Shown here: piece after piece, positions 4,954 to 20,610 of the stretch
Layout: each line of letters begins with the position of its first letter
Position numbering within the stretch: the first letter of the stretch is position 1
Origin: a virus
Virus record (IMG/VR): IMGVR_UViG_3300017772_000173
Coordinates: 1-21,029 of that record
Reading direction: 5' to 3' (one strand)
Length of the DNA: 21,029 nucleotides
Position numbers and translations under genes: made by a program
The notes under the pieces: generated by a model
Told to the model about the DNA's origin: nothing
Seen by the model: only the letters and a program-made list of their open reading frames with translations
Database searches by the model: none

Positions 4954-5107
4954 TATTCTCCTCGGTGAACTTATGTAGGTTCAGTATTAGTTTGTCTTCA
5001 AAGCGGTCTAAGAGTTCTTCTATGTCAATCTCTAGTGCCTCTAGGACTAGATCAGGATCGTACTCTTGTTTAATCTTTTCAATTACTTCTTCTAGGATCA
5101 TTGACAT
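4940..5107 (-). CDS. Small acidic protein (55 aa), overlaps both neighbours
   Basis: An open frame of 55 codons filling what otherwise would be a 125-base gap. The product begins MSMILEEVIEKIKQEYDPD and continues LVLEALEIDIEELLDRFEDKL, ending NNDYE. It is acidic and amphipathic, probably a helical hairpin. The start (ATG 5107, or ATG 5101 two codons later) lies inside the end of the endonuclease I gene, with a GAGGAG sequence ten bases upstream. It ends inside the start of the next gene. Overlap on both sides, acidic codon pattern and strand agree with a real gene. Function unknown. Confidence 0.6.
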   Translation of the reverse strand: MSMILEEVIEKIKQEYDPDLVLEALEIDIEELLDRFEDKLILNLHKFTEENNDYE

Positions 5108-7096: not shown

Positions 7097-8848
7097 TTAG
7101 TGTGTCTCAGCCCAACTAGAGCCTACTTTGTATTCTCCGTCCAGAGGACAACGCATGTTAAGCTGTGTCCCTGCTGCTTTGATGCTTTCTACCATAAGGT
7201 AACCAGCTTTCTTAGCGTCCTTGATTAGCACTTGGTCTTGCATCTCATCATGAATATTACCGACCCTATGTGCGTCCAATGACCATAGTCTACTGTATTC
7301 ATCATAGATTGTCAACGCCTTCTTCATAACGATGGCACCACCGCCCTGTAACAAGCGATTCAAGGCACTGTGTAGACTATCGACAGGGATTCTACGTCCG
7401 TCTAAGCCGGGCACAGACCCTGAGTTACTGGCTATACGTTGTACCTTAGTTATCAAGGCCCCTAGTGCAGGGACACCCTCTAGGAACTTAGCCTTAAGGT
7501 CCTTTCCGTCTGAGGCGTTGCCACCTACGATACTACCTATCTTAGCGTCTCCTGCTCCGTAGAGGAAGGCATAGATAAAGGTCTTAGCCTCAGAACGTTT
7601 ACTAAGCCCCGCAGCATGCTGGTTCAGGGTATGAATGTCGTCACCGTTCTCCTGAGATCCTTCACAGACTGCCTTGATGTACTCAGGCTCGTCCATGTAG
7701 TGAGCAAGCATCCTAAGCTCTAAGCCTGAGGCATCGGCACCTACGATACAGTACCCATCAGGGGCTATCCATAGGCTGCGGCACCCATGACCCCATGGAG
7801 CATCACAGGAAGGCACCTGAGCCACATTAGGGCTGTTGTGCGTCATACGTCCTGTCACTGCTCCCATGGGGTCAACGCGGCCATGTACTCTGTTGTCAGG
7901 GCCTAGATAGTGAATCCACTGTTCCACCTGTGACCTACGCTTGTCCAGTAGCAGGAAGTCGTAGATAGCTTTGGCCTCAGGGATAGCCTCCGAAGCCTCC
8001 TCTAAGGTCTCGTAGTTAACCACAGGGACCCTAGTCTTCTCAGTGAACTCAGTAGGCTTCCAACCTGCGGTAACCAGTCTCTCAGCCACCTGAGGTCCTG
8101 ACCCTAAGTTTAACTCTTGCCATTCAATGCGGCTAAAGGGGCCACCGACAATCTTAGTCGCATGTTCCCCGTAGCACTTTAAACCTACGACACTGAGTGT
8201 TCCGTCCTTTTTAACTTTTGGTGTAATCTCTTTAACCAAGGTAGCTTTTGGCCTAAACGTACTATGAACAATCTCCGTTGCGTCATTGATCCTCTCCTTT
8301 AATGTTCCAAGCAATTCATGGGCTCCCTTTGCGTCCAAGAGCCACCCATTCAATTCCTGTTGATAAATAATCTCAGCTACCTTATGTTCTAAGTCAACTG
8401 AGTCCTCTGAGAACTGCCTTAGTTCCCTATGCAGCAGAGAGACTACAGCCCCAAGTACCTTACAGTCCTGACGTAAGTACTCAGACATCTCGGGTGTGTA
8501 CCTTGAGTAGTCATGGAAGTCAATCTTCCTATGTCCTACCAAAGCACCCAAGTTGTCCAAAGAGTGACCTCCGTCCCTACGGGGTGTAGCTAACTTAGAC
8601 ATAACTATGGTATCCCTTTGGATACCATAGTGACTAATGTCTATGTCCCATAGGTTTCTGAGTACAGGGTAGTCAAACTTAATCCCATTGTGAGCGTACC
8701 AAGTACCTGAGGAAACTGAGGAGGCATAGTCCCTAAGTGACTTAGCGTCCCTAAACTCCTCGTAGTTACCCTCTGAGTCCTCGACACCTACGCACCAAAT
8801 AACTTTGGGGCTCAGTGACTCAGTTTCTATGTCAACGTAGTACTCCAA
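7097..8848 (-). CDS. DNA polymerase, family A, T7 gp5-like, with 3'-5' exonuclease
   Basis: Replicative polymerase of 583 residues. Exonuclease motifs: D6/E8 in VDIETE, N54 and D59 in AHNGIKFDY, Y124 and D128 in YLRQD. Polymerase motifs: A, D372 in ADASGLELR; B, R418, K422, Y426 and Y430-G431 in KRSEAKTFIYAFLYGAG; C, H533-D534-E535 in NIHDEMQD. The AKTFIY.FLYGAGD.KIG string is nearly that of T7 gp5. Y426 matches the T7 tyrosine (Y526) linked to acceptance of dideoxynucleotides. The protein is about 120 residues shorter than T7 gp5, and the thumb region (about 200-255), where T7 has its thioredoxin-binding insert, looks reduced. The start is TTG 8848, chosen because AGGAG lies six bases upstream and the protein then begins right at the exonuclease strand. 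It follows the primase-helicase by 24 bases. Confidence 0.95.
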   Translation of the reverse strand: MEYYVDIETESLSPKVIWCVGVEDSEGNYEEFRDAKSLRDYASSVSSGTWYAHNGIKFDYPVLRNLWDIDISHYGIQRDTIVMSKLATPRRDGGHSLDNLGALVGHRKIDFHDYSRYTPEMSEYLRQDCKVLGAVVSLLHRELRQFSEDSVDLEHKVAEIIYQQELNGWLLDAKGAHELLGTLKERINDATEIVHSTFRPKATLVKEITPKVKKDGTLSVVGLKCYGEHATKIVGGPFSRIEWQELNLGSGPQVAERLVTAGWKPTEFTEKTRVPVVNYETLEEASEAIPEAKAIYDFLLLDKRRSQVEQWIHYLGPDNRVHGRVDPMGAVTGRMTHNSPNVAQVPSCDAPWGHGCRSLWIAPDGYCIVGADASGLELRMLAHYMDEPEYIKAVCEGSQENGDDIHTLNQHAAGLSKRSEAKTFIYAFLYGAGDAKIGSIVGGNASDGKDLKAKFLEGVPALGALITKVQRIASNSGSVPGLDGRRIPVDSLHSALNRLLQGGGAIVMKKALTIYDEYSRLWSLDAHRVGNIHDEMQDQVLIKDAKKAGYLMVESIKAAGTQLNMRCPLDGEYKVGSSWAETH

Positions 8849-8859
8849 CTTAGTCTCCT
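8846..8859 (-). promoter_or_regulatory. Ribosome-binding site selecting a TTG start for DNA polymerase
   Basis: AGGAG (8855-8859, minus strand) is followed by ACTAAG and TTG at 8848-8846, six bases away. No ATG or GTG lies near the start of the exonuclease motif. The arrangement copies that of the reductase gene. Confidence 0.7.
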
Positions 8860-8872
8860 ATGTAGCCTTTGA

Positions 8873-10498
8873 TCATAGTTCCTCGCCTCCTTCAAACTCA
8901 GGCATCTCAGTCATACGTCCTGTGTTTTTATCATATAGCAACCTAGTGGCTACCCCTGTCTCACCTGTCCAACGGTTCTTAAGTACCCTGACTGTGCTTA
9001 GGTTACGTTCGTTAATGTCCTCTGCCTGTTGATTACGTTCAAAGGCTACTACGAAGTCACTAAGCTGTGCAATGGAGCCTGAGCCTCTAAGCTGACCTAA
9101 TGTAACTCGGCCACCTTCCTCATGGTTCTTACCCTCAGGTCTCTTAAGGTGAACTACGACAAAGATAGTAGCCCCTGTCTCCTCAGCCAGAGTACGTATC
9201 TTAGTCATGATTGCGTCAATGTTCTTACGTTCATCACCGCCCTCTTGGTCAGATACTACGATACTGAGGTGGTCTAGGAATATCCATTTGCACCCACAAC
9301 CTTTGATCATAAATCTTAGTCGATTCATAATGTTGTCTTCGGACGTAGACCCAAAGTGATCAAATAGATAGAACCTACGTGTACCTAAAGTCTTATCAAA
9401 GAAACCTTGTATCTCGGACTTAGGTACGTCTCGGTCAACATGGAGTCTTTGGTTAGCCTCAATACTCATAATACCTAGCCCTGTAATGGCCTTGGATTCC
9501 TCTAAGGCCAGTACCCCTATCTTGTCATCAGTGGTACTGAACAACCAGTGCTCCATCTCACGGATAAACTGAGACTTCCCCATCCCTGAGCCTGAGGTTA
9601 CAGTGATCACAGTACCCTGTTGTAGGCCCTTGGTTAGCTCATTTAAGCCCTCATAAGGGTAAGGTACTGACTCCACGTCCAGCCTGTTTATGATGTCTTC
9701 CCAAATGTCACCACCGTTAACAATGCCGTCCGGTGTGTACACCTCAGCAGCCCACCATGCACTTTTGAACTCCTTGATCCTGTTCGCCATGAGCATTGCG
9801 TTAGCGTCCTTGAGAGGCAGACGTACCCTCAGGGCCTTGCCCGGCTCTAGGATGTCCTTAACTGCGTCCCATGCTTTATCACCATGCTCATCCATGTCAA
9901 AGCAGAAGCGTACTTCGTCGTACTTCTCAATGTAGTCAAGCATTTCCCTGAGTTCCTGAGCAGCACCTTGAGCACCGTTGTTCAGGGACATTACGTCCCA
10001 CTGCTTACCATTCATCTCAGCAACAGCCATAGCGTCCAGCTCACCCTCAGTGATCGTAAGCCTACCTTTGCCTTTGCACTTGTTGTACCCAAACATGGCT
10101 ACGTCTTCCTTAGTGCCCGTGCTGTAGAAGCCCTTAGTCTGAACTAAGCGGATCTTAGTACTACACAGTTTCTTGTCGGCTTTAGTGTACCTAGGATAGT
10201 AGTGCTTATCTATGCTTCCGGCTTGATCATAGGTGACTAGGACTCCGAAGTGTTCACAGATAGACTTAGGAATCTTACGATCCCCTAAGTCCGATAAGAC
10301 ACCTGTGAACTCTACTGGTGTGCTTTGTGTCATAGTATTATGTCCCCTAGTTTCCCTTACTTCGTCATTGTAGCTGCTGGAGTGGACGTGGTAATCACAG
10401 TTGGGTGTCCAACAGTGTTTACCTCCGTCCTCATACACAGCTACGTTATCACGAGAGCCACACGAAGGGCATGGCTCTCTGTTGACAACTCTGGACAC
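8873..10498 (-). CDS. Primase-helicase, T7 gp4-like
   Basis: A 541-residue bifunctional replication protein. Residues 10-34 form a zinc ribbon (C10, C13, C29, C34) that reads primer sites. The TOPRIM primase core has E151 in TITEGELDA and D201/D203 in CFDMDEHGD. The helicase half has Walker A in SGSGMGKS (302-309), Walker B in WIFLDHLS (D409), RGSGSIAQLSD (471-481) and NRWTGETG (508-515), which matches the arginine-finger region of T7 gp4. It unwinds DNA as a hexamer and lays primers for the polymerase encoded next. The start is GTG 10498, directly abutting the SSB stop, and SSB's final codons (GAGGA) supply the ribosome-binding site. An internal ATG (residue 56) could give a form without the zinc ribbon, as in T7 gp4B. 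Confidence 0.95.
   Translation of the reverse strand: MSRVVNREPCPSCGSRDNVAVYEDGGKHCWTPNCDYHVHSSSYNDEVRETRGHNTMTQSTPVEFTGVLSDLGDRKIPKSICEHFGVLVTYDQAGSIDKHYYPRYTKADKKLCSTKIRLVQTKGFYSTGTKEDVAMFGYNKCKGKGRLTITEGELDAMAVAEMNGKQWDVMSLNNGAQGAAQELREMLDYIEKYDEVRFCFDMDEHGDKAWDAVKDILEPGKALRVRLPLKDANAMLMANRIKEFKSAWWAAEVYTPDGIVNGGDIWEDIINRLDVESVPYPYEGLNELTKGLQQGTVITVTSGSGMGKSQFIREMEHWLFSTTDDKIGVLALEESKAITGLGIMSIEANQRLHVDRDVPKSEIQGFFDKTLGTRRFYLFDHFGSTSEDNIMNRLRFMIKGCGCKWIFLDHLSIVVSDQEGGDERKNIDAIMTKIRTLAEETGATIFVVVHLKRPEGKNHEEGGRVTLGQLRGSGSIAQLSDFVVAFERNQQAEDINERNLSTVRVLKNRWTGETGVATRLLYDKNTGRMTEMPEFEGGEEL
10331..10348 (-). promoter_or_regulatory. Possible internal translation start in the primase-helicase gene
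   Basis: AGGGGA (10343-10348, minus strand) lies nine bases before an in-frame ATG (10333-10331) that encodes M56, between the zinc ribbon and the TOPRIM domain. T7 gene 4 uses an internal start at a similar place (residue 64) to make the helicase-only 4B form. Confidence 0.4.
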
Positions 10499-11181: not shown

Positions 11182-11889
11182 TTAGTCCCCTTTCTCTATT
11201 TCCATGATGTCCCAAATGATTGCCTTAACTTTCTCAGCAACCTCCCTGTGTTCCTTCTGTGTACTAGGGTCTGTACGTACGTCACAGAAGTGTATCCAAG
11301 ACCGCATTGACCCTGAGACAAACATACGGGACATAGTAAGGCCCTCAGGTAGTACTACTCTGGCAACTTCCTTAGCTACTTCTCGGTTTATCAGTATCCC
11401 ATACTCAGCCACAGAAGTGGTGAGAACATGGTGCATGGCTTCCTCAGATCTTTCTCGGGTCCAGTCGCTTACGTCCTCTAGGGAATTCTGACGGTTCTCA
11501 GTGTCCTGCATCCTAACCTGTCTTAAGCTCCAAAGTGCGCCCATGTCTTTTAATGGGTTCGCGTACCTTTGTGAGAACTCTTGGAAGTGTAGGCTTCGGT
11601 GCCTAAGTAGCTGTCTGGATATGTCCCTAGGGGTCTCTATTAGGAACCCCGCAGTCACCATCTCAAAAGGTGACCAATGCTTATGCTCCGATAAGTAGTC
11701 CATAAGAGCTCCCGACTTACCCTTAGCAATCTCAGGGGGCACAGATACTCTAGCTCTCTCGCTAATAAGGTCCCTAGGTGCCTGTGGGTTCCAGCTTAGG
11801 CCTGCTTCCTTAGTGTAGGTAACCGGGCAGCTAAGATCCAGTAGCTCGACCTTAGATATTTCTTGATATTCGTTGTTAGCTTTGTGCAT
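11182..11889 (-). CDS. thyX: Flavin-dependent thymidylate synthase ThyX
   Basis: Makes dTMP from dUMP using methylene-tetrahydrofolate and FAD. The 235-residue protein carries the ThyX signature: R96-H97-R98 followed by S106 and R108 in RHRSLHFQEFSQR, a close form of RHRxxSxNExSxR in which the usual Asn-Glu is Gln-Glu. HWSPFEM (71-77) is the conserved segment after the substrate helix, and the LPEGLTMSRMFVSGSMRSW stretch supplies the C-terminal substrate contacts. Length is typical for the family. The ATG has AGGGGAAGAG just upstream and overlaps the preceding gene by 14 bases. With the class II reductase it gives the phage its own route to dTTP. It has the usual CTTAG density, unlike the gene cluster directly upstream. 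Confidence 0.95.
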   Translation of the reverse strand: MHKANNEYQEISKVELLDLSCPVTYTKEAGLSWNPQAPRDLISERARVSVPPEIAKGKSGALMDYLSEHKHWSPFEMVTAGFLIETPRDISRQLLRHRSLHFQEFSQRYANPLKDMGALWSLRQVRMQDTENRQNSLEDVSDWTRERSEEAMHHVLTTSVAEYGILINREVAKEVARVVLPEGLTMSRMFVSGSMRSWIHFCDVRTDPSTQKEHREVAEKVKAIIWDIMEIEKGD

Positions 11890-12187
11890 AAATCTCTTCC
11901 CCTAGTTGTAGAATCTCTTCTTTACTGGCACCTGCCTTTTCAGCGTAGTAAGCAGCATTAGCGGCAGCATAAACAGCATCATAAACAGCATAAGTAGCAG
12001 CATAAGCGGCAGCATCATCATGTGATTTGTTTTTAGCGGCTTCGATGGCTAGTCTTGGCCTATTATCATCAGGGTATTTTTCCTCAAAGATTGGTAGTAC
12101 TAACTCCGCACAAGCAACCGCCCATAAACGGTTTTGATCTGGTGTCAGTTTTTCTGCTAGTTTTTTAAACTTGTCCTCTCTGTTCAT
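11876..12187 (-). CDS. Hypothetical Ala/Tyr-rich helical protein
   Basis: A 103-residue protein with a low-complexity helix, HDDAAAYAATYAVYDAVYA then AANAAYYAEKAGASKEE, preceded by a charged N-terminus (MNREDKFKKLAEKLT). Proteins with this Ala-Tyr repeat pattern occur in phages and are sometimes called putative immunity-like, but I cannot assign a function. ATG 12187 is preferred over the longer frame because it forms an ATGA overlap with the upstream stop and has GTGAAGGA directly before it. It is the last of six overlapping genes with nearly no CTTAG, and its 3' end overlaps thyX. Confidence 0.6.
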   Translation of the reverse strand: MNREDKFKKLAEKLTPDQNRLWAVACAELVLPIFEEKYPDDNRPRLAIEAAKNKSHDDAAAYAATYAVYDAVYAAANAAYYAEKAGASKEEILQLGEEIYAQS

Positions 12188-12480
12188 TCCTTCACCCCTC
12201 TCCATTCGTTGATTATCTCTCTTGCTTTACTGACTCTGACTACAGCATCTGTCCTTATGTCTGGCCCTCGTACTGTGGCTTCTTCATTGGTAATGATTTC
12301 AGGCATTGGATTAAGTGCTAGGTCCAGCTCCTTGATTACCCCCCTCATCTTCTGTACCTCCTCACTGGCTTTGCGGATGTAAGGGGCGGGGTTTCTCTCT
12401 ATCTCCCTGCGTTGCTGCTCAGACATGTTTCGTAGTGTCTTGAAGATAAACCGAGATGATAGGTCTATTACGTTAGCCAT
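12184..12480 (-). CDS. Hypothetical basic helical protein
   Basis: A 98-residue protein from MANVIDLSSRFIFKTLRNM onward, with a charged central helix (SEQQRREIERNPAPYIRKASEE, read in parts) and a basic C-terminus. The start at ATG 12480 is chosen because AGGA lies five bases upstream and the overlap with the preceding gene then falls to eight bases; the longer frame from 12537 would overlap by 65. No family recognised. It is part of the six-gene cluster of foreign-looking composition. Confidence 0.6.
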   Translation of the reverse strand: MANVIDLSSRFIFKTLRNMSEQQRREIERNPAPYIRKASEEVQKMRGVIKELDLALNPMPEIITNEEATVRGPDIRTDAVVRVSKAREIINEWRGVKE

Positions 12481-12664
12481 ATTTTTCCTCGCGTGCTCTG
12501 CTAAATTCTTCCGCCTCTTCCTGTAGGAAGTATCCAATACAGTCCATCACGGCCTCCTCTAGTTGGTCCGGGGTCATTTTTATCCAGTCATTCTTTGCGC
12601 CGGTTCTGTCGTCACCGTCGTTAAAGTTTGCATCAATCCAATCCTTTACTCGTTTGATGTTCAT
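12473..12664 (-). CDS. Hypothetical acidic protein
   Basis: A 63-residue acidic protein (DANFNDGDDRTGAKNDW, then TPDQLEEAVMDCIGYFLQEE). The C-terminal helix is Glu-rich. The ATG overlaps the upstream stop as ATGA, with GAGGTGAGGGA before it. No family recognised. It belongs to the six-gene cluster 11876-13539. Confidence 0.6.
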   Translation of the reverse strand: MNIKRVKDWIDANFNDGDDRTGAKNDWIKMTPDQLEEAVMDCIGYFLQEEAEEFSRAREEKYG

Positions 12665-12885
12665 TCCCTCACCTCGCTGTCTACTGGTGGTATGAAAGTT
12701 ACTGTGAAACCGTTTTCTTCAAGCGTTTCTTTTGCCATCGCAGCGTGAGCTACTGCTGTTTCTAGCCGCTCTTTAAGCTCGGCGTTCTCACGTTGTAGGG
12801 CTTCGATCAGCAGCCAAGCTTTCATTAGATCAGCGCCGTCATACTCGCCGGACTTCAGTTTTACGACTAATGGGTGTCTAGGCAT
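12661..12885 (-). CDS. Hypothetical coiled-coil protein
   Basis: A 74-residue protein with a heptad-like central helix (LLIEALQRENAELKERLETA), which suggests a short coiled coil and dimer formation, flanked by a basic N-terminus (MPRHPLVVKLKSGEY) and a beta-like tail (GFTVTFIPPVDS). It overlaps the upstream gene by eight bases and the downstream gene by ATGA. Phage genomes often carry short coiled-coil proteins of this type with no known role. Confidence 0.6.
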   Translation of the reverse strand: MPRHPLVVKLKSGEYDGADLMKAWLLIEALQRENAELKERLETAVAHAAMAKETLEENGFTVTFIPPVDSEVRE

Positions 12886-13336
12886 CTTTATTCCCCTCTA
12901 GGTAGTCTGCTGCTTTGATTGCATCGAATAATTTACTATCGGCGTCTAGACTTCGTTTATTAAGGCATTCAGCCCTAGCCTCCACAATCGCTTTGAGCAG
13001 TGATTCTAGGTGCTGGATTTCCCCGCGATACTCATTCTTAGCCATGTCGTGACCATCCATTAGCGCAGAGGCCAACTGAGCCTTCAAAGCTGCAATCTTC
13101 GCGTCATCGGACTTGCCTATTAGATATTCAGGCATCATTGTCTTTTGTAGTGCTAGAACGTCTTGTGCCTTCCCGCATTTAGGGCATTCGCAAACGTCCA
13201 TACAGCCCAACCAAATAACTCGACAATCAACACAGCGTAGCTCTACCGCTCGATCTGCCGGTGTTGCTGATAAGTTTCCGTAGTGCGACCAGTCACCTTC
13301 TGGCGAACCTAGATCAAAGCCAATATGTTTACTCAT
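12878..13336 (-). CDS. Hypothetical zinc-ribbon and coiled-coil protein
   Basis: A 152-residue protein. Residues 35-54 contain C35, C38, C45, C49, C51 and C54 (CVDC, then CECPKC), enough for a zinc ribbon. Residues ~78-125 form a charged helix likely to be a coiled coil (AALKAQLASALMDGHDMAKNE and on). The C-terminal helix DSKLFDAIKAADYLEGNKDA follows. No catalytic motif is visible. It overlaps both neighbours by four and eight bases. A DNA- or protein-binding adaptor role is possible but unproven. Confidence 0.62.
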   Translation of the reverse strand: MSKHIGFDLGSPEGDWSHYGNLSATPADRAVELRCVDCRVIWLGCMDVCECPKCGKAQDVLALQKTMMPEYLIGKSDDAKIAALKAQLASALMDGHDMAKNEYRGEIQHLESLLKAIVEARAECLNKRSLDADSKLFDAIKAADYLEGNKDA

Positions 13337-13539
13337 CCTTCACCCCCTGTAAGTTGCTCGACTCGCAGACTTTCTAGGCCAGCTTTATCGAAGGCATCAT
13401 AGAAGTAACCTCGTGCAGTCTCTTCTATTGTTTCTACTTTGCGACCTTCGTACCACCACTCTTCAAGCTCGGCAGTAAGCGTTACCATTACCCCGTTCCT
13501 TAAAGCTGTCCCAGTACATAAATACTTACGGGGCGTCAT
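13333..13539 (-). CDS. Hypothetical protein, first gene of the foreign-looking cluster
   Basis: A 68-residue protein with a beta-rich N-terminus (KYLCTGTALRNGVMVTLTAELEEW) and a helix (ETIEETARGYFYDAFDKAG), the layout of a small strand-strand-helix domain. It is the promoter-proximal member of the six-gene cluster; an AGGAG site lies ten bases before the ATG, and the TGA overlaps the next ATG as ATGA. Its leader runs into the AT-rich region with a candidate promoter at 13695-13723. Function unknown. Confidence 0.6.
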   Translation of the reverse strand: MTPRKYLCTGTALRNGVMVTLTAELEEWWYEGRKVETIEETARGYFYDAFDKAGLESLRVEQLTGGEG

Positions 13540-13587
13540 TCGGCTTCTCCTGTAATCTTCATTTCTTAGTCCCTATAACTTAGTTCC

Positions 13588-13601
13588 CTAAGTTAACTTA
13601 G
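13588..13601. repeat. 14-bp palindrome in the leader of the six-gene cluster
   Basis: CTAAGTTAACTTAG is a perfect palindrome about 50 bases upstream of the first gene's start. It is built from two CTAAG words in inverted order, within an AT-rich stretch (13560-13720) otherwise free of genes. Confidence 0.5.
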
Positions 13602-13694
13602 TTTACCTTACTTAACCTAAGTTTTAATCATTAGTTATTAAACATAGATAATAAACTTAGATAACTTAATCTCTGTCCTCTTTGTATACTAAGT

Positions 13695-13723
13695 ATTATA
13701 CACTGTATTACTCAATATACAAA
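13695..13723 (-). promoter_or_regulatory. Candidate leftward promoter for the six-gene cluster
   Basis: A perfect -10, TATAAT (minus strand, 13700-13695), lies 17 bases from a poor -35, TTTGTA (13723-13718). The region is AT-rich. The -35 is weak, so the site may need an activator or may be false. The transcript would start about 150 bases before the first gene. Confidence 0.4.
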
Positions 13724-13735
13724 CTTTTAGCCAAG

Positions 13736-13764
13736 GGTTCTTAGAATGCTTAGTAATAAGAACC
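13736..13764. repeat. Inverted repeat, 8-bp arms
   Basis: GGTTCTTA and TAAGAACC are separated by 13 bases. The right arm is shared with the 27-bp element at 13754-13780. There is no T-run after it on either strand, so it does not look like an intrinsic terminator. Confidence 0.5.
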
Positions 13765-13780
13765 GGGGCCCTTAGTACCT
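13754..13780. repeat. 27-bp element, copy 1 (copy 2 at 17789-17815)
   Basis: The two copies match at 23 of 27 positions by eye. Both contain ATAAGAACC near one end and CTTAGTACCT at the other. Each lies upstream (for leftward transcription) of genes almost free of CTTAG. Copy 1 also includes GGGGCCC, related to the promoter-spacer palindromes at 16957 and 17435. Confidence 0.6.
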
Positions 13781-13786
13781 AAACCT

Positions 13787-13980: not shown

Positions 13981-14130
13981 TTAGTCCTCTTTGTCCTTAG
14001 TTTCCATAGATACGTTTACTAATGTACTATTGTACTCCCTAGAAATTAGTTCGATTAGTCGGCTTAAGTGGGCAGGGAGCCCTGTCTTATTATGTACCTC
14101 AAAAGATAGCTGTACTTTAGTTATAGCCAT
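13981..14130 (-). CDS. Small hypothetical protein (49 aa)
   Basis: An open frame of 49 codons with a strong site, AAGGAGG, ten bases before ATG 14130. The product begins MAITKVQLSFEVHN, continues LPAHLSRLIELISREYN and ends METKDKED. Strand-helix-strand is likely. The codons for the last residues of the upstream gene (ACTAAGGAGGACTAA) make its ribosome-binding site, and its own last codons are similar. It fills a 157-base gap exactly between two genes on the same strand. Function unknown. Confidence 0.65.
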   Translation of the reverse strand: MAITKVQLSFEVHNKTGLPAHLSRLIELISREYNSTLVNVSMETKDKED

Positions 14131-14135
14131 TGTTC

Positions 14136-14366
14136 TTAGTCCTCCTTAGTTTCATCGTTAGTGTTCTTAAGCGCCTCGTTAGCACTAGGTCTGCTATGTT
14201 CAGTTACCAGTGCCATAATTTCAGAGGCATACCTTAGGTCCTGATGGCTCTTACATGTTTCTCTGGCTCCTCTGTCCTTAGCTATCCATAGGCTAGGTGC
14301 CTGTACTTCCACTACCTTGCCGTTGCGTTTGTTGCGTAGCGTGTACTTAGTGTCTGAGTTATTCAT
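14136..14366 (-). CDS. Hypothetical protein
   Basis: A 76-residue basic protein (KYTLRNKRNGKVVEVQAPSL, then helix DRGARETCKSHQDLRYASEI) with an acidic tail (NDETKED). It overlaps the hexapeptide-repeat gene by eight bases. The N-terminal beta hairpin followed by a helix is reminiscent of small DNA-mimic or regulator proteins, but no family is recognised. Its last codons double as the ribosome-binding site of the next gene. Confidence 0.6.
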   Translation of the reverse strand: MNNSDTKYTLRNKRNGKVVEVQAPSLWIAKDRGARETCKSHQDLRYASEIMALVTEHSRPSANEALKNTNDETKED

Positions 14367-15084
14367 AGTATGCCCTCACTGCATTTTCCAAAAAATCTAA
14401 TATTAACATAGTTTCATCGCCTAGCTTAGTACCACTTCGAGTCTTTGTCCAGTGTTCCCTTGCTTCTTGCATTGTAAAGTACCTACAGCCCGCACTTACT
14501 CTGAATACCCCATCAGAGCATTGGCAATAGGTGAATACGTAGCCATCGCTACGCTTAATCTGTGGCAAGTCTCTATCGTATAACATTGTGCCTGTTATAA
14601 TACCCGCCTTTAGATAGACACCCCCATAGACCCTAGCATCCCCATAGACCCTAGCATCCCCAGAGATCTGAGAATTCCCATAGACCCTAGCATTATCAGA
14701 GACCTTAGCATCCCCATAGACTTTAGCATCCCCAAAGACCCTAGCATTCTCAAAGACCCTAGCATTCTCATAGACTTTAGCATCCCCAAAGACCCTAGCA
14801 TCCCCAAAGACCCTAGCATTCCCAAAGACCGTAGCATACCCAAAGACCGTAGCATTCCCAAAGACCCTAGCATTCTCAGAGACCGTGGCATTCCCATAGA
14901 CCCTAGCATCCTCATAGACTTCAGCATTCCAAGAGACGGTAGCATTATCAGAGACCGTGGCATTATCAGAGACCGTGGCATTATCAGAGACCTTAGCATT
15001 CTCAGAGACCCTAGCATTCCCATAGACCCTAGCATCCCTAGAGACCGTAGCATTATCAGAGACCCTAGCATTCCTCGTTATCAT
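14359..15084 (-). CDS. Hexapeptide-repeat (left-handed beta-helix) protein
   Basis: A 241-residue protein. Residues 5-154 are about 25 consecutive hexapeptides of the form [ND]-A-x-V-x-x (NARVSD, NATVFG, DARVYG and so on), the pattern of a left-handed beta-helix in which every third turn face stacks the Val. Such folds occur in acyltransferases and in many phage proteins labelled polymer-forming. Residues 155-241 form a separate domain with FTYCQCSDG, VSAGCRYFTMQEAREHW and LDFLENAVRAYYE, which matches my memory of the C-terminal domain that follows such helices in phage proteins. I see no loop or histidine arrangement typical of an acyltransferase active site, so enzyme activity is doubtful. 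A GGAGTGA site precedes ATG 15084. Repeat number is likely to vary between relatives. Confidence 0.8.
   Translation of the reverse strand: MITRNARVSDNATVSRDARVYGNARVSENAKVSDNATVSDNATVSDNATVSWNAEVYEDARVYGNATVSENARVFGNATVFGYATVFGNARVFGDARVFGDAKVYENARVFENARVFGDAKVYGDAKVSDNARVYGNSQISGDARVYGDARVYGGVYLKAGIITGTMLYDRDLPQIKRSDGYVFTYCQCSDGVFRVSAGCRYFTMQEAREHWTKTRSGTKLGDETMLILDFLENAVRAYYE
14623..15072 (-). repeat. 18-bp tandem repeats within the beta-helix gene
   Basis: About 25 imperfect 18-bp units encode the hexapeptides. On the plus strand they appear as phrases such as AGACCCTAGCATTCCCA. Several adjacent units are almost identical (for example the run at about 14935-14995), which would allow gain or loss by slippage. 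The repeats keep a second minus frame open for 153 codons. Confidence 0.85.
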
Positions 15085-15086
15085 AA

Positions 15087-15245
15087 TTATTCACTCCAAC
15101 CTGTTTTATGTTTAGTGTACCCTGTCTTTTGTTTACGCTTACGATCTACGAACGTAGTCGCTTTGCTGACTTTGTGCGCGTGCTTAGCTACAAAGTTTCT
15201 ATTGCTGTGTTTCTTACTGTCACCTTGTTTTCTAGTCCAACTCAT
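15087..15245 (-). CDS. Small basic protein (52 aa, DUF7230-like)
   Basis: An open frame of 52 codons between the beta-helix gene and 15242-15472. The product has NRNFVAKHAHKVSKATTFVD and then RKRKQKTGYTKHKTGW; it is strongly basic. The NRNFVAKHA...KA...DRK pattern resembles short phage proteins grouped as DUF7230, from memory. The ATG overlaps the upstream stop as ATGA. It may bind nucleic acid, judging by charge only. Confidence 0.65.
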   Translation of the reverse strand: MSWTRKQGDSKKHSNRNFVAKHAHKVSKATTFVDRKRKQKTGYTKHKTGWSE

Positions 15246-15494: not shown

Positions 15495-16172
15495 TCAGGT
15501 AATTATGTGCTCGTTAGCTCTACAAAGAGCCTCCATAAATCCCCTAGGCGTGGTGCTACGGATCTTCTTAGTCTTAGCTCCTTTGCCTCCTAGCTTCTTA
15601 TGCTGTCTACTATACTGGCTCTCTGGCTCCACGGGAGCCACGGGAGGTTTAACTACGTCGGGAGTACACCATATGCCAGTCTTTTTAGTGTATGCGTCCC
15701 TAGGGGCGATGTGGTCTGGAAATTCTGGATGCTCTGCCTCCGCTATAGGTATGTACTGACCATAGTCACACGGATTAAAGTAGAAGTTAGGTTTGCGCCA
15801 TAGAGAAGCCAATACGCTTACAGGGTTCTCTAGGATTACAGGCACGCCTTTAGGTGCGTAGTGGTCATACGCGAGCCGGCATAGAGCCGCGGCATCATCC
15901 TGAAACTTAGGATTCTTTAGCCTTTTGGAGGCGAAGTGAGCCGCCCCAGAGACTGCTAGGTCTGTACAGGGTGGGAAGCCTATTACTAGCCTAGGCTTTA
16001 AAGCCCCTAGTAATTCCTTGGATACAGAAGCTCCCAGTTTTAGGTATTGAGGATGCCCCGTTAAACCTTTGGGGTGCTGAGTATCAACGGCTAAGACACT
16101 ATAGCCACGGTCTAACCATGGTTGTGCCGCGTAATCAGTGACGTTGAACAGTAGGAGAATATCGACTTTCAT
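15495..16172 (-). CDS. Cytosine methyltransferase-like protein without a target-recognition domain
   Basis: A 225-residue protein with a SAM-methyltransferase layout of the C5-cytosine type. From M1 (ATG 16172): a first strand DILLLFNVTDYAAQPW in place of the usual FxGxGG, an acidic end VDTQH (30-33), IGFPPCT (65-70) with C69 at the place of the catalytic Cys, LENPVS (114-119) like the ENV motif, YTKKTGIW (161-168) and TPRGFMEAL near the end. This order matches a family of short phage proteins that have PPC, ENP and TKxT motifs but little room for a separate target-recognition domain. It could modify DNA or be a catalytically changed relative. ATG 16172 is preferred to the GTG at 16214 because AAGGT lies upstream of it. 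It has its own promoter candidate and lies next to the Gp88-family gene. Confidence 0.7.
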   Translation of the reverse strand: MKVDILLLFNVTDYAAQPWLDRGYSVLAVDTQHPKGLTGHPQYLKLGASVSKELLGALKPRLVIGFPPCTDLAVSGAAHFASKRLKNPKFQDDAAALCRLAYDHYAPKGVPVILENPVSVLASLWRKPNFYFNPCDYGQYIPIAEAEHPEFPDHIAPRDAYTKKTGIWCTPDVVKPPVAPVEPESQYSRQHKKLGGKGAKTKKIRSTTPRGFMEALCRANEHIIT

Positions 16173-16232
16173 GGTGGTACTACCTTTAGTTAATTGAAGT
16201 TGAACTATAGACACCTTAAGTTTAAATGCCTA

Positions 16233-16920: not shown

Positions 16921-16950
16921 TGTTCTCAGATCCTTAGTTGTTATGGACCC

Positions 16951-16979
16951 ATGGTAAACCAAGGGCCCTTGGTTGTCAA
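16951..16979 (-). promoter_or_regulatory. Leftward promoter with an 18-bp palindrome filling the spacer (Gp88 gene)
   Basis: On the minus strand TTGACA (16979-16974), then 17 bases, then TACCAT (16956-16951). The spacer, with one further base, is the perfect palindrome AACCAAGGGCCCTTGGTT (16957-16974). A near-palindrome ATGGACCCAT overlaps the -10 and start site. A protein bound to the palindrome would sit between the -35 and -10, as a repressor does at an operator. Confidence 0.7.
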
Positions 16980-16983
16980 GTAC

Positions 16984-17193
16984 TTAATACTCTTTGTTGT
17001 CTAGGTGCTCAACCAGCTCACTGTTTAACTCGTTGATTCTAGGTAGTATGTGATTGTGTATCAGTCGCAGAGTGTACCTATCGTTCTTCATAAGTAGGTC
17101 GCATACCTTAGCACTACCGTATAGGCCCGCGGCTAGTTCTGTTAAAATGAAGTTTAAAGGGGTTAGCTTGTTTACGTTTGGGTGTTTGATCAT
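16984..17193 (-). CDS. Hypothetical protein
   Basis: A 69-residue protein, predicted helical (NFILTELAAGLYGSAKVC, then RYTLRLIHNHILPRINELNSEL) with a basic N-terminus. AGGAG lies eight bases before ATG 17193. No family recognised. It ends four bases before the -35 of the Gp88 promoter. Confidence 0.55.
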   Translation of the reverse strand: MIKHPNVNKLTPLNFILTELAAGLYGSAKVCDLLMKNDRYTLRLIHNHILPRINELNSELVEHLDNKEY

Positions 17194-17393: not shown

Positions 17394-17428
17394 TGTGCTT
17401 AGTCCTTAGTTACTTAGTTGATGGGCCC

Positions 17429-17457
17429 ATGGTAAACCTAGGGCCCTAATTTGTCAA
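17429..17457 (-). promoter_or_regulatory. Leftward promoter with GGGCCC palindrome in the spacer (membrane-protein gene)
   Basis: On the minus strand TTGACA (17457-17452), 17 bases, TACCAT (17434-17429). The spacer contains the perfect palindrome TAGGGCCCTA (17439-17448). A second palindrome, ATGGGCCCAT (17421-17430), overlaps the -10. This copies the architecture of the promoter at 16951-16979. The -35 overlaps the last codons of the upstream gene. Confidence 0.7.
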
Positions 17458-17694
17458 ATGATTATCGTGAATCACGTCATCAAATGTTGCTGCGAAGTAG
17501 CTGTATTCAGCCTCCTCTTGAGACTTAAATTGATTCCGCGCGTCGTTTCTGTCCGCGTCCCAGTCATTCAATCCGTTTTCCGCTGCCATTCCCATTGCGT
17601 CTATTTCTTCCAGAGTGAAATCTTCTATTTTTGCAAGGTTGTCAATAGCAAGTAGCTGAATTACCCACTCTTGATATCCGCTAGTTTTGATCAT
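17446..17694 (-). CDS. Hypothetical acidic protein, first leftward gene
   Basis: An 82-residue acidic protein starting MIKTSGYQEWVIQLLAI, with a helix rich in Glu, Asn and Asp (AAENGLNDWDADRNDARNQF) and ending DDVIHDNHLTN. I chose ATG 17694 because GGAG lies nine bases upstream; the longer frame from 17739 has no clear site. It is the first gene of the leftward block and probably early expressed. It has no CTTAG, although its flanks are full of the word. Small acidic early phage proteins often inhibit host enzymes, but nothing here shows that. Confidence 0.55.
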   Translation of the reverse strand: MIKTSGYQEWVIQLLAIDNLAKIEDFTLEEIDAMGMAAENGLNDWDADRNDARNQFKSQEEAEYSYFAATFDDVIHDNHLTN

Positions 17695-17788
17695 TTTGTT
17701 CTGCTCCGTTTGGTGCGTTGCTTGATTTGATGAGTACATTGTACACTACTGGGTCCCTATGTCTACTACCGTTCGTCGGGACAATAAG

Positions 17789-17815
17789 TTATAAGAACCA
17801 GGGTGCTTAGTACCT
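17789..17815. repeat. 27-bp element, copy 2 (copy 1 at 13754-13780)
   Basis: Shares ATAAGAACC and CTTAGTACCT with copy 1, with four mismatches in 27. It lies about 95 bases upstream of the first leftward gene. Confidence 0.6.
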
Positions 17816-17866
17816 TAGGGTATTGGTGCTCTTTATATGCCTAGCCAGCATAGACCATAGTTCACC

Positions 17867-18068
17867 TAGCATACTGAGTGCACTAAGTCAACAGGGGGCT
17901 AAGGCCTTAGCATACTGAGTGCACTATGTCAACCATGGGCTAAGGCCTTAGCATACTGAGTGCACGTTGTCAACACAGTACGTGCGCTAGCATACTGAGT
18001 ACACTGTGTCAACCATGGTCTAAGGCCTTAGCATACTGAGTGCACGTTGTCAACATAGTCCTTAGTGG
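17867..18068. repeat. Five iteron-like direct repeats of about 41 bp
   Basis: Copies start at 17867, 17908, 17949, 17988 and 18029, spaced 41, 41, 39 and 41 bases, close to four helical turns. Each has TAGCATACTGAGTGCAC (one G-to-A change in copy 4), three variable bases, then GTCAAC. The remainder is partly shared: copies 1, 2 and 4 end with CTAAGGCCT; copies 3 and 5 share GTT in the variable position. On the minus strand every copy has TTGAC[AT], but the sequence 17 bases on is not a good -10. Same-face binding sites for an initiator or regulator fit best. Confidence 0.85.
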
Positions 18069-18123
18069 TACCCTAAGCAGCCCTCGCTGTCCAATGTTTT
18101 CTAAGTTATCCGATGAACGGTCA

Positions 18124-18233
18124 CCTAGCACAATGGCCCTAAGTTGTCTAAGATTACTTTGGACTAAGGCCCTTGGCCCTAAGTACCTAAGGGACTAAGG
18201 CCCCTAGCACAATGGCCCCTAGTTGTCTAAGAT
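18124..18233. repeat. Two 31-bp direct repeats 79 bp apart
   Basis: The copies at 18124-18154 and 18203-18233 share CCTAGCACAATGGCCC and AGTTGTCTAAGAT, 29 of 31 bases in all. Both are followed within about 10 bases by TTGG and ACTAAGG. They lie between the 41-bp repeats and the G-tracts. Confidence 0.75.
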
Positions 18234-18276
18234 CCTTTGGTACTAAGGGAGCCGGGCTTAGAACCTTAGGGACTAA

Positions 18277-18314
18277 GGGCTGAGGGGCTGAGGGACAAGG
18301 GGGCCGGGGTGGGG
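18277..18314 (+). other. G-tract cluster with G-quadruplex potential
   Basis: Six runs of three to five G (18277, 18284, 18292, 18299, 18306 and 18311) are separated by one to four bases on the plus strand. This meets the usual G3+ with loops of 1-7 rule. Three further GGG runs lie just upstream (18247, 18254, 18269). Confidence 0.6.
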
Positions 18315-18619
18315 ATTGGATCTTGGTTTACTTAGGGGTAGGCTACCAAGTTTACAAAAGAGTAAAACTAGGAACTAGGCCCTTAGACCCTTGGTTTAAC
18401 TAGGTACTAAGGCCCTAAGAACTAGGTAAACTAACCATAATGTAGTCAATGTGACCAATGTAACTAAGTACTTGAATACTAAGGGACTTTGAGCTAAGAA
18501 ACTTAGTAAATAACTAAGAAAAACCTTGACATTTAGGGTCAACTCGGGCATCATAGTTAACTAAGGGAAACTAAGCTAAGATTACTATGTAAAAACTAAG
18601 GTTTTAGGCCCTTAGGGTA

Positions 18620-18648
18620 TTGACTTTTGCTTAGATACATGTTATAAT
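18620..18648 (+). promoter_or_regulatory. Strong rightward promoter for the terminase genes
   Basis: TTGACT (18620-18625), 17 bases, then TATAAT (18643-18648), preceded by TGT, which makes an extended -10. The -35 matches five of six and the -10 all six. Transcription would start near 18655 and give a leader of about 230 bases before the small terminase gene. Confidence 0.8.
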
Positions 18649-18688
18649 ATTAACATAGTTCAAACAAAGATTAGTACACTAAGGTCTA

Positions 18689-18810
18689 AGGCTCTTAAGT
18701 TTAGCAAGTGTATTATCTTATGTATATAACTATAATAAAAAACTAAGGTTTCTGAGTAACTTAAGAGCCTCAGCTTACTAAAGCTAAGGTCCTGAGTAAC
18801 TTAAGAGCCT
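18689..18810 (+). repeat. One 12-bp arm with two alternative partners in the terminase leader
   Basis: AGGCTCTTAAGT (18689-18700) is exactly complementary to ACTTAAGAGCCT at 18759-18770 and again at 18799-18810. The partners lie in a direct repeat with a 40-base period (shared CTGAGTAACTTAAGAGCCT). In RNA the first arm could pair with one or the other, not both. Confidence 0.7.
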
Positions 18811-18849
18811 AAGGCTAAGTTTACTAAGCAATCACTTGCACCCATAGTG

Positions 18850-18867
18850 AACTTAGTTCACTAAGTT
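18850..18867 (+). promoter_or_regulatory. Hairpin just upstream of the small-terminase ribosome-binding site
   Basis: AACTTAG and CTAAGTT are separated by TTCA, a 7-bp stem with a 4-base loop, ending five bases before AAGGAG. It could affect access to the ribosome-binding site. Confidence 0.5.
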
Positions 18868-18872
18868 AACCT

Positions 18873-18886
18873 AAGGAGAAACTTTG
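18873..18886 (+). promoter_or_regulatory. Ribosome-binding site selecting a TTG start for the small terminase gene
   Basis: AAGGAG (18873-18878) lies five bases before TTG 18884. No ATG occurs in frame until well inside the reading frame. Confidence 0.7.
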
Positions 18887-19348
18887 AGTACCAAAGAACC
18901 TGAGGACACCACAAAGCCTACTAAGGCTAAGGATACTAAGCTAAGTAAACCTAAGGGTCGCGTAGGTAGACCTAAGAAGGCTGACGTATCTAAGAAAAAG
19001 CAGGGTAACCGAGGGGCTGTAGGTAGGCCTAAGGGCGATGCAGCCATAATGAATGAGTATAAATCAAGGATGTTGACTTCACCTAAGTCACGCAAAGTCC
19101 TTGACAGTATATTCAATGCAGCCTTGGATGATGAACATAAGAACCAAGCAGCAGCATGGAAACTGGTGATGGACAGAGTAGCTCCCAGCGCCATGTTTGA
19201 ACAAGAGGTTACTAAGGGCCAAGGTAAGAACTCAATACAAATCAATATCACTGGACTTACTGCCAATGTACCCCAAGACATAGGGGATGCAGAGTTTACC
19301 GAAGTAACTGAGGACCTAGGTGCCTCAGACTCTGAGCTAGGAGCCTAG
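18884..19348 (+). CDS. Putative terminase small subunit
   Basis: A 154-residue protein placed directly before the large terminase, as small subunits usually are. Residues 1-50 are highly basic and disordered, with two AT-hook-like motifs, RVGRPKK (26-32) and AVGRPKG (45-51), which could grip AT-rich DNA. Residues ~55-100 are helical (NEYKSRMLTSPKSRKVLDS, then AAWKLVMDRVAP), the likely oligomer core, and the C-terminus is acidic. Small terminases recognise the packaging site and feed DNA to the large subunit. The start is TTG at 18884. The last codon is followed by the large terminase start after two bases. Ten CTAAG words occur within the gene, mostly as NCT-AAG codon pairs. The role rests on position and charge rather than a signature motif. 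Confidence 0.75.
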   Translation: MSTKEPEDTTKPTKAKDTKLSKPKGRVGRPKKADVSKKKQGNRGAVGRPKGDAAIMNEYKSRMLTSPKSRKVLDSIFNAALDDEHKNQAAAWKLVMDRVAPSAMFEQEVTKGQGKNSIQINITGLTANVPQDIGDAEFTEVTEDLGASDSELGA

Positions 19349-19350
19349 GG

Positions 19351-20610
19351 ATGTCCTTAGAGTTTAATGTCGAACTTCTACCGTGGCAACAAGAGGTCTT
19401 TGTAGACCCCAGCAGGTTCAAGGTCATAGCAGCAGGGAGACGGTGTGGCAAAAGCCGCCTTGCAGCAATTACTTTGCTCCTGAAGGCCCTAGAGGACTCA
19501 CCGGGCCAAGTATACTATGTAGCCCCTACACAGGGACAGGCTAGGGACATTATGTGGGATACCCTAGGTGAACTAGGCCATTCCTTTATCCAAAGTAAAC
19601 ATATTAACAATCTACAGATAACCCTGATCAATGGGGCTAAGATAAGCCTCAAAGGGGCTGACAGACCAGACACTATGCGAGGTGTGGCCCTTAAGCACTT
19701 AGTCATGGATGAGTACGCAGATATGAAGCCTGAGGTCTTTGAACAGATCCTCAGACCTGCACTTAGTGACCACAAAGGTTCCTGTATTTTTATTGGTACA
19801 CCTATGGGTCGTAATCATTTCTATGAAATATACACCAAGGCATACCTAGGGGAGCTACCGGACACTAAGGCTTGGCACTTTACCTCAGCAGATAACCCCC
19901 TCATGGACCCTAATGAGATCCAAGCTGCTAAGGAAACCCTAAGCTCCTTTGCCTTTAGACAAGAGTACGAGGCTTCCTTTGAAGCCCGTGGCTCAGAGAT
20001 GTTTAAGGAGGATTGGGCTAAGTTCTCAGAGGAGGAACCTAAGGGTGGTCAATGGCTCATAGCAATAGACTTAGCTGGTTTTGAGGAAGTAGCAAAGGGT
20101 GCTAAGGCATCCAAGCACTTAGATGACACAGCTATAGCCATAGTAAAAGTATCCCCAGAGGGATGGTGGGTCAAGGACATCATAGCAGGACGTTGGACTC
20201 TTAAGGAGACTGCGGCTAAGATATTCCAAGTAGTCAGAGACTACAGACCTACAGCTATGGGAATAGAGAAGGGGATAGCTAAACAGGCAGTTATGAGCCC
20301 TTTAGAGGACTTACAGAGGCAGTACGGTAGATTCTTTAATGTACAGGAACTTACCCACGGTAATCGTAAGAAAACTGACCGTATCATGTGGGCTTTGCAA
20401 GGAAGGTTTGAGAATGGCCTAGTTACCCTGAACAAAGGTGAGTGGAACACTAAGTTCCTAGATCAACTATTTCAATTCCCTGACCCTCTGACCCATGACG
20501 ACATGGTGGATTCACTAGCGTACATAGACCAGTTGTCCGAAGTCATCTACATCGACGAAGGATTCTACGAAACATACGATGAGCCCCTAGACGAAATAGC
20601 AGGATACTAG
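19351..20610 (+). CDS. terL: Terminase large subunit (ATPase and nuclease)
   Basis: The DNA-packaging motor, 419 residues. ATPase part: Walker A in AAGRRCGKS (27-35), a Q-rich adenine-contact segment in PWQQEV (11-16), Walker B in LVMDE (117-121) with the catalytic E121, and the coupling motif IFIGTP (146-151). Nuclease part (RNase H-like fold): D240 in IAIDLAG, E306 in GIEKG, and D383/D384/D387 in THDDMVDSLAY. The nuclease cuts concatemers while the ATPase drives DNA into the capsid through the portal encoded next. The length is on the short side for a full motor-nuclease but both domains are complete. It directly follows the small subunit and shares its transcript. Confidence 0.95.
   Translation: MSLEFNVELLPWQQEVFVDPSRFKVIAAGRRCGKSRLAAITLLLKALEDSPGQVYYVAPTQGQARDIMWDTLGELGHSFIQSKHINNLQITLINGAKISLKGADRPDTMRGVALKHLVMDEYADMKPEVFEQILRPALSDHKGSCIFIGTPMGRNHFYEIYTKAYLGELPDTKAWHFTSADNPLMDPNEIQAAKETLSSFAFRQEYEASFEARGSEMFKEDWAKFSEEEPKGGQWLIAIDLAGFEEVAKGAKASKHLDDTAIAIVKVSPEGWWVKDIIAGRWTLKETAAKIFQVVRDYRPTAMGIEKGIAKQAVMSPLEDLQRQYGRFFNVQELTHGNRKKTDRIMWALQGRFENGLVTLNKGEWNTKFLDQLFQFPDPLTHDDMVDSLAYIDQLSEVIYIDEGFYETYDEPLDEIAGY

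Follow-up and report, generated by a model that had tools for sequence, protein, structure and literature searches.

The 21,029-base stretch analysed here (the window, which is an entire IMG/VR record and a linear fragment from an uncultured virus of bacteria) is enriched throughout its coding and noncoding DNA in the gapped palindrome CTNAG, with no positional conservation of the sites beyond background. Tentatively, and with a little less than even confidence, this is attributed to a directional pressure acting on the word's density rather than its positions, exerted by a DNA-acting factor possibly supplied by the host, similar to that behind the highly iterated palindromes (HIPs) of cyanobacteria.

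The preliminary description counted by hand about 48 copies of CTAAG or CTTAG (together, CTWAG) between positions 17740 and 18883, where about two would be expected by chance. The exact count is indeed 48 (34 CTAAG and 14 CTTAG), and the expectation holds under an order-0 simulation (2.2), but rises to 3.8 and 4.8 under order-1 and order-2 models of the rest of the window. Even when the order-2 model is built from 17740–18883 alone, it predicts 13 copies, with a maximum of 22 in 300 runs. In the full window, 207 copies are observed, compared to 76 (order 1), 96 (order 2), and 144 (maximal order) expected. The last of these, a 5-mer test on both strands corrected for tetranucleotide composition, had been named beforehand as the one that could refute the excess; it gives a z of 5.2 in its favour, and the proposed genome-wide preference thus survives all the composition controls run.

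The excess of CTAAG and CTTAG is therefore real, but the proper unit is the gapped palindrome CTNAG. CTCAG and CTGAG (CTSAG) amount to 140 copies, against 84 under the maximal-order model (z 6.1) and 60 by another estimate; their enrichment in genes is about equal to that of CTWAG, while the A/T centre is strongest in noncoding DNA. When all 16 gapped dyads of the form XYNY'X' are compared, CTNAG alone is strongly in excess (347 vs. 152, z 15.8), and 284 copies vs. 136 expected are found outside 17740–18883 and the solenoid repeats. More weakly, C-N-W-N-G pentamers are enriched in general, and the spacing of C...G pairs peaks at four bases. The solenoid repeats belong to a gene at 14605–15084 with 18-bp tandem repeats, which encodes a YdcK-like beta-solenoid and has a homologue in the related contig L249.

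The window holds a leftward replication module (RNR, an endonuclease, a Cas4-type exonuclease, DNA polymerase A, a primase-helicase, an SSB-like protein, ThyX, and GP88) and rightward genes for the small terminase, the large terminase, and the portal. The genes called are open reading frames, and these calls determine how the noncoding stretches are tallied (a short gene near 13990–14132, for example, is placed only roughly). The features relevant to the distribution of the word are the following:

7097–10498, minus strand: DNA polymerase A and primase-helicase genes, with 30 CTWAG vs. about 10 expected
11876–13539, minus strand: six small genes forming a block of 1.66 kb that holds a single CTWAG, without homologues in the relatives fetched
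13540–13786, no strand: second noncoding stretch, with 10 CTWAG in 247 bp (40 per kb)
15495–16214, minus strand: DNA methyltransferase-like gene (PHROG 757)
17394–17445, minus strand: three CTAAG, 8–9 bp apart, in the leader directly before the start codon of a leftward gene
17740–18883, no strand: divergent intergenic control region upstream of terS, the largest noncoding stretch of the fragment, with 48 CTWAG (42 per kb)
18884–19348, plus strand: small terminase gene (terS), with a TTG start and 10 CTWAG (21.5 per kb)
19351–20610, plus strand: large terminase gene (terL), with 14 CTWAG vs. 4.8 expected

Noncoding DNA as a whole carries 34 copies per kb, 18-fold over base composition. The saturation originally ascribed to the control region stands as a count, but its density is not special, with 40 per kb at 13540–13786 and 58 per kb in the leader at 17394–17445. 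Because distant noncoding stretches are equally dense, 17740–18883 is better described as the longest noncoding stretch than as a special cluster. A few short noncoding stretches are sparse, such as 4954–5078 (8 per kb) and 15085–15241 (6 per kb).

In coding DNA, a synonymous-codon shuffle leaves all four forms of the word approximately 2- to 3-fold above expectation (CTAAG 85 vs. 43, CTTAG 48 vs. 17, CTCAG 63 vs. 20, and CTGAG 62 vs. 32; z 6 to 10), and in more than one reading phase. The NCT-AAG codon pairs to which the genic copies had been linked are in excess (70 vs. 32 in the shuffle), but the enrichment extends to CTTAG and to other phases. The excess over the shuffle, together with the noncoding density, rules out a codon or codon-pair effect as the sole cause. 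The word was also said to be dense in the terminase genes and most replication genes, which is the case for terS, terL (11.1 per kb), the polymerase (9.7 per kb), and the primase-helicase (8.0 per kb), but less so for RNR (5.2 per kb), and not at all for the SSB-like gene (0). The nearly word-free block at 11876–13539 was probably inserted recently and has yet to gain the word.

The control region has an architecture of its own, whose main elements are:

17867–18060, no strand: repeat array (family D2), with five copies of TAGCATACTGAGT at a spacing near 40 bp
18124–18248, no strand: 46-nt repeat (CCTAGCACAATGGCCC..., family D12), with two copies 79 bp apart
18285–18374, plus strand: G-tract element (GGGGGCCGGGGTGGGG ... 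ACTTAGGGGTAGG ... TTTACAAAAGAG), common to relatives
18620–18648, plus strand: TTGACT-N17-TATAAT, a sigma-70-like promoter for the terminase operon, also conserved among the relatives

Four to five copies of the TAGCATACTGAGT array end in GTGCAC or GTACAC followed by GTCAAC, and the palindrome CTAAGGCCTTAG precedes three of them. The G-tract element (18290–18374) shares 79% DNA identity with L004 and L249, and no exact repeat from 17740–18883 was found in other viral contigs. The CTWAG words show no helical phasing at 10–11 bp; their spacing tends to multiples of about 8 bp (cosine sum of 38 vs. a 99th percentile of 36.5 for random placements), a marginal signal inflated by the duplications in the region. 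A homologous intergenic region sits before terS in the relatives, where at least two DnaA boxes occur within the 1.2 kb preceding terS in 56 of 164 cases. These boxes are about 30-fold denser there (308 in 217 kb) than elsewhere (67 in 1408 kb). Clusters of up to 11 DnaA boxes (TTATNCACA), as in L188, L191, L281, L165, L009, L055, and others, mark a candidate origin of replication for the family, which is uncultured. No DnaA box is present in the 17740–18883 region of the window; its probable role, by analogy with these clusters, is that of a replication origin or control region.

No close isolate was found among phage records, which give no DNA match, the best terL hit reaching about 44% identity over half its length. 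Viral metagenomes contain hundreds of relatives with a terminase identity of about 70%, the closest being L004 (85%). These contigs are fragments of uncultured viruses; a host assignment through bacterial genomes was dropped, as the matches were three unrelated MAG bins and not informative. Among 318 related contigs, the window shows the highest CTWAG excess (2.7-fold; median 0.86). When the same word was sought in relatives, as had been proposed, the excess was missing from most of them and present in two separated lineages. One comprises the window, L004, and L249, which is syntenic with the window, and the other L319, L370, and L350. L350 and L370 were picked up independently, by a scan for DNA patterns; GP88 places both in the family, as do terminase, polymerase, and primase for L370. 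In the terminase tree, the window groups with L004 and L015 (support 0.99), with L015 as sister to the other two, while L319 and L370 form the other lineage, 0.69 substitutions per site away, whose own nearest other relatives show no excess.

The genes of L249, L004, L015, L319, L370, and L350 exceed synonymous expectation (z 2.1 to 6.3, with open frames chosen greedily), unlike those of L016 and L025 (z 0.9 and 0.7), whose DNA outside open frames holds 1.2–1.3 copies per kb. In L015 the excess is confined to genes (22 vs. 8), with 3.8 copies per kb in intergenic DNA. The intensity of the word also differs between close relatives, since the terL of L004 has just 3 copies vs. 14 in the window.

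Individual sites are not retained. In codon alignments with L249, L004, and L319, 12 of 67 CTWAG sites of the window are identical in the relative, when arbitrary 5-mers in that phase would give 11.9, so fixed protein-binding sites—one of the origins initially suggested—are an unlikely source of the genome-wide part. One-base variants in relatives become the word at positions 1, 2, 4, and 5 in similar numbers, through transitions in both directions and transversions. Although this spectrum is indicative only, as the relatives are not independent, it implies that a single mutational class, such as deamination, is insufficient, and a mutation bias of that type, also considered at the outset, is unlikely.

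A small subset of copies lies at translation starts. The earlier claim that the word forms the spacer of ribosome-binding sites is borne out by GGAGGACTAAG, found before a leftward start at about 14136–14146 on the minus strand. In the 30 bases before 36 starts, CTAAG occurs 12 times and CTTAG twice in sense, so that the word is oriented with transcription, which suggests that some CTAAG copies also serve as ribosome-binding-site extensions. These 14 start-proximal words are a minor part of the 207. The leader at 17394–17445 is preceded by a promoter-like sequence:

17457–17429, minus strand: TTGACA-N17-TACCAT

A 44-nt repeat, 82% identical between its copies at 16943–16986 and 17421–17464, lies before the leaders of leftward genes, and the second copy contains this promoter-like sequence.

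Under the favoured explanation, a directional pressure on DNA would raise CTNAG density everywhere in this phage lineage, with unconstrained DNA reaching 30–40 copies per kb and genes settling 2- to 3-fold above synonymous expectation. Copies would come and go, the density being kept and the position not, and 17740–18883, the family's control region before terS, would look saturated as the longest unconstrained DNA. The agent would be a protein that acts in trans and recognises the site as a dyad; it may be a DNA methyltransferase working together with biased mismatch repair, on the model put forward for cyanobacterial HIPs, or a protein of DNA binding or repair that profits from the density. 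It would perhaps come from the host, or from a gene on the unsequenced part of the genome; a host supply is suggested because no gene common to the word-rich lineages only was found in the available fragments. The methyltransferase of the phage itself is disfavoured as the agent, since its gene, present in 6 of about 320 relatives, is missing from the word-rich L249 and present in word-poor relatives, and thus does not track the word. The excess in both coding and noncoding DNA, the centre-degenerate palindrome, its recurrence in two lineages, the free turnover of its sites, the variety of substitutions that create it, the word-poor insert, and the HIP precedent all count in favour of this explanation. 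Against it count the orientation bias in leaders, which a symmetric process at the DNA level does not predict, the lack of excess in the intergenic DNA of L015, and the scarcity of copies in the terL of L004.

Other explanations have to be weighed against this one. A cluster of binding sites for a regulator or a replication initiator (an iteron-like or operator array), with the genic copies as spill-over or extra sites, would fit the conserved position of the control region, the DnaA-box clusters of the relatives, the true repeats at 17867–18060 and 18124–18248, and the 8-bp spacing tendency, weak as the latter is. It is nevertheless considered unlikely, because other noncoding stretches are equally dense, genes show a strong excess as well, the sites are neither conserved nor restricted to the control region, and the density seems far above the need of a regulator. 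A shade less probable still is a mutation bias that depends on sequence context, arises from polymerase or repair in the phage or the host, and operates without selection. The gradient from noncoding DNA, the most affected, through synonymous positions to the probable recent insert, which is not affected at all, agrees with it, as does the free turnover of sites; however, no one class of substitution suffices to produce the mixed changes observed, and the 18-fold noncoding excess would need a context effect extending over five bases.

A Chi-like role, as a protective sequence or a recombination hotspot for an end-processing nuclease of the host, is very improbable. The word is short, genome-wide, and present on both strands, and replication through linear ends would profit from such sites in a phage that encodes a Cas4/RecB-type exonuclease, but CTNAG is a dyad with no dominant orientation in genes after codon use (CTAAG 2.0-fold, CTTAG 2.9-fold), and CTCAG/CTGAG are equally enriched. 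An RNA-level role, in which CTAAGG would act as an extended Shine-Dalgarno or leader element resembling the start-associated sequences of mycobacteriophages, appears just as improbable: it would account for the sense bias before starts, with several words running into the ribosome-binding site (CTAAGGAGA), and for the three tandem words of the 17394–17445 leader, but not for the remaining copies, most of which are within genes or far from starts, nor for CTTAG being enriched in genes at least as much as CTAAG. Finally, loss of CCWGG restriction sites by a double C-to-T/G-to-A change would yield CTWAG, and the window has a single CCWGG where 50 are expected. This origin is scarcely credible and largely refuted, since CCWGG is equally missing from most relatives, in which CTWAG is not in excess (rank correlation 0.12, p 0.12), L015 keeps CCWGG (8 vs. 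10) yet shows the excess, and T-to-C, A-to-G, and transversion changes also yield the word. CCWGG (CCAGG/CCTGG) is near zero in most relatives, as well as in the Lentibacter phage ICBM1 (2 vs. 57 expected), which suggests that marine phages strongly avoid a restriction site of the EcoRII type. CCTGG and CTTAGG words were also seen densely intermixed in one noncoding-looking stretch (2061–2960) of L389, a contig in which none of the window genes tested had a match.

The directional pressure on CTNAG might be one case of a wider, genome-wide word drive, a possible but doubtful generalization in which each lineage fills the terS-upstream region with its own word, favours it throughout its genes, and switches it between lineages. 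The dominant words by lineage are CTNAG, CACAGG with DnaA boxes, CAGGC/AGCCT, and ACACA/GTCAA. In 104 contigs, several of them near-duplicates, the dominant words of the region exceed synonymous expectation in coding DNA chosen by greedy open frames (mean centred z of 0.81 vs. 0.00 ± 0.07 for swapped words). With trinucleotide correction, the coupling is 0.34 for the region, about twice the 0.16–0.20 of ordinary segments, which therefore show about half of it. This coupling is a lead, not proof. Genome-wide favoured palindromes are an old puzzle in cyanobacteria, and similar behaviour is seen here in a phage genome small enough to dissect, where the contrast between two separated word-rich lineages and many word-poor close relatives lends itself to a search for the agent. 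Should the agent prove to be a protein of the host, the word would act as a host signature in the sequence, of possible use in linking uncultured phages to their hosts.

A search of the literature on overrepresented phage pentanucleotides, CTTAG, podovirus DnaA boxes, and CCWGG avoidance gave nothing relevant. Chi sites, which serve RecBCD or AddAB, are asymmetric, strand-biased, and read as one strand. CTNAG is also short and overrepresented genome-wide, but it is a dyad with both strand forms enriched in genes. The DnaA-box clusters of the relatives share with the CTNAG-rich region of the window the intergenic location, the downstream gene, and the use of a lineage-specific repeated word, the difference being the DnaA boxes themselves. 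The start-associated sequences of cluster K mycobacteriophages are asymmetric 13-bp elements located at starts, with 11–19 copies per genome (PMC3203893). Like them, CTNAG is a short repeated phage word with some sense-oriented copies just upstream of starts, but it is a 5-bp palindrome with 347 copies in 21 kb, mostly inside genes.

The HIPs of cyanobacteria (HIP1, GCGATCGC, and alternate HIPs) are lineage-specific overrepresented palindromes associated with methyltransferases, proposed to be caused by biased mismatch repair without selection for function, possibly as a by-product (PMC4390886). CTNAG differs from them in being a phage word of 5 bp with a free centre and an A+T-rich core, densest in noncoding DNA, in recurring within a single phage family in two lineages, and in not being tracked by the methyltransferase-like gene of the window. 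Moreover, the one-off variants of HIP1 are biased to particular positions, while those of CTNAG fall similarly on positions 1, 2, 4, and 5, among relatives that are not independent. Like the HIPs, however, CTNAG is a palindromic word far above expectation over the whole genome, in coding and noncoding DNA alike, and in both cases the words are lineage-specific and possibly the by-product of a process acting on DNA rather than a set of functional sites.
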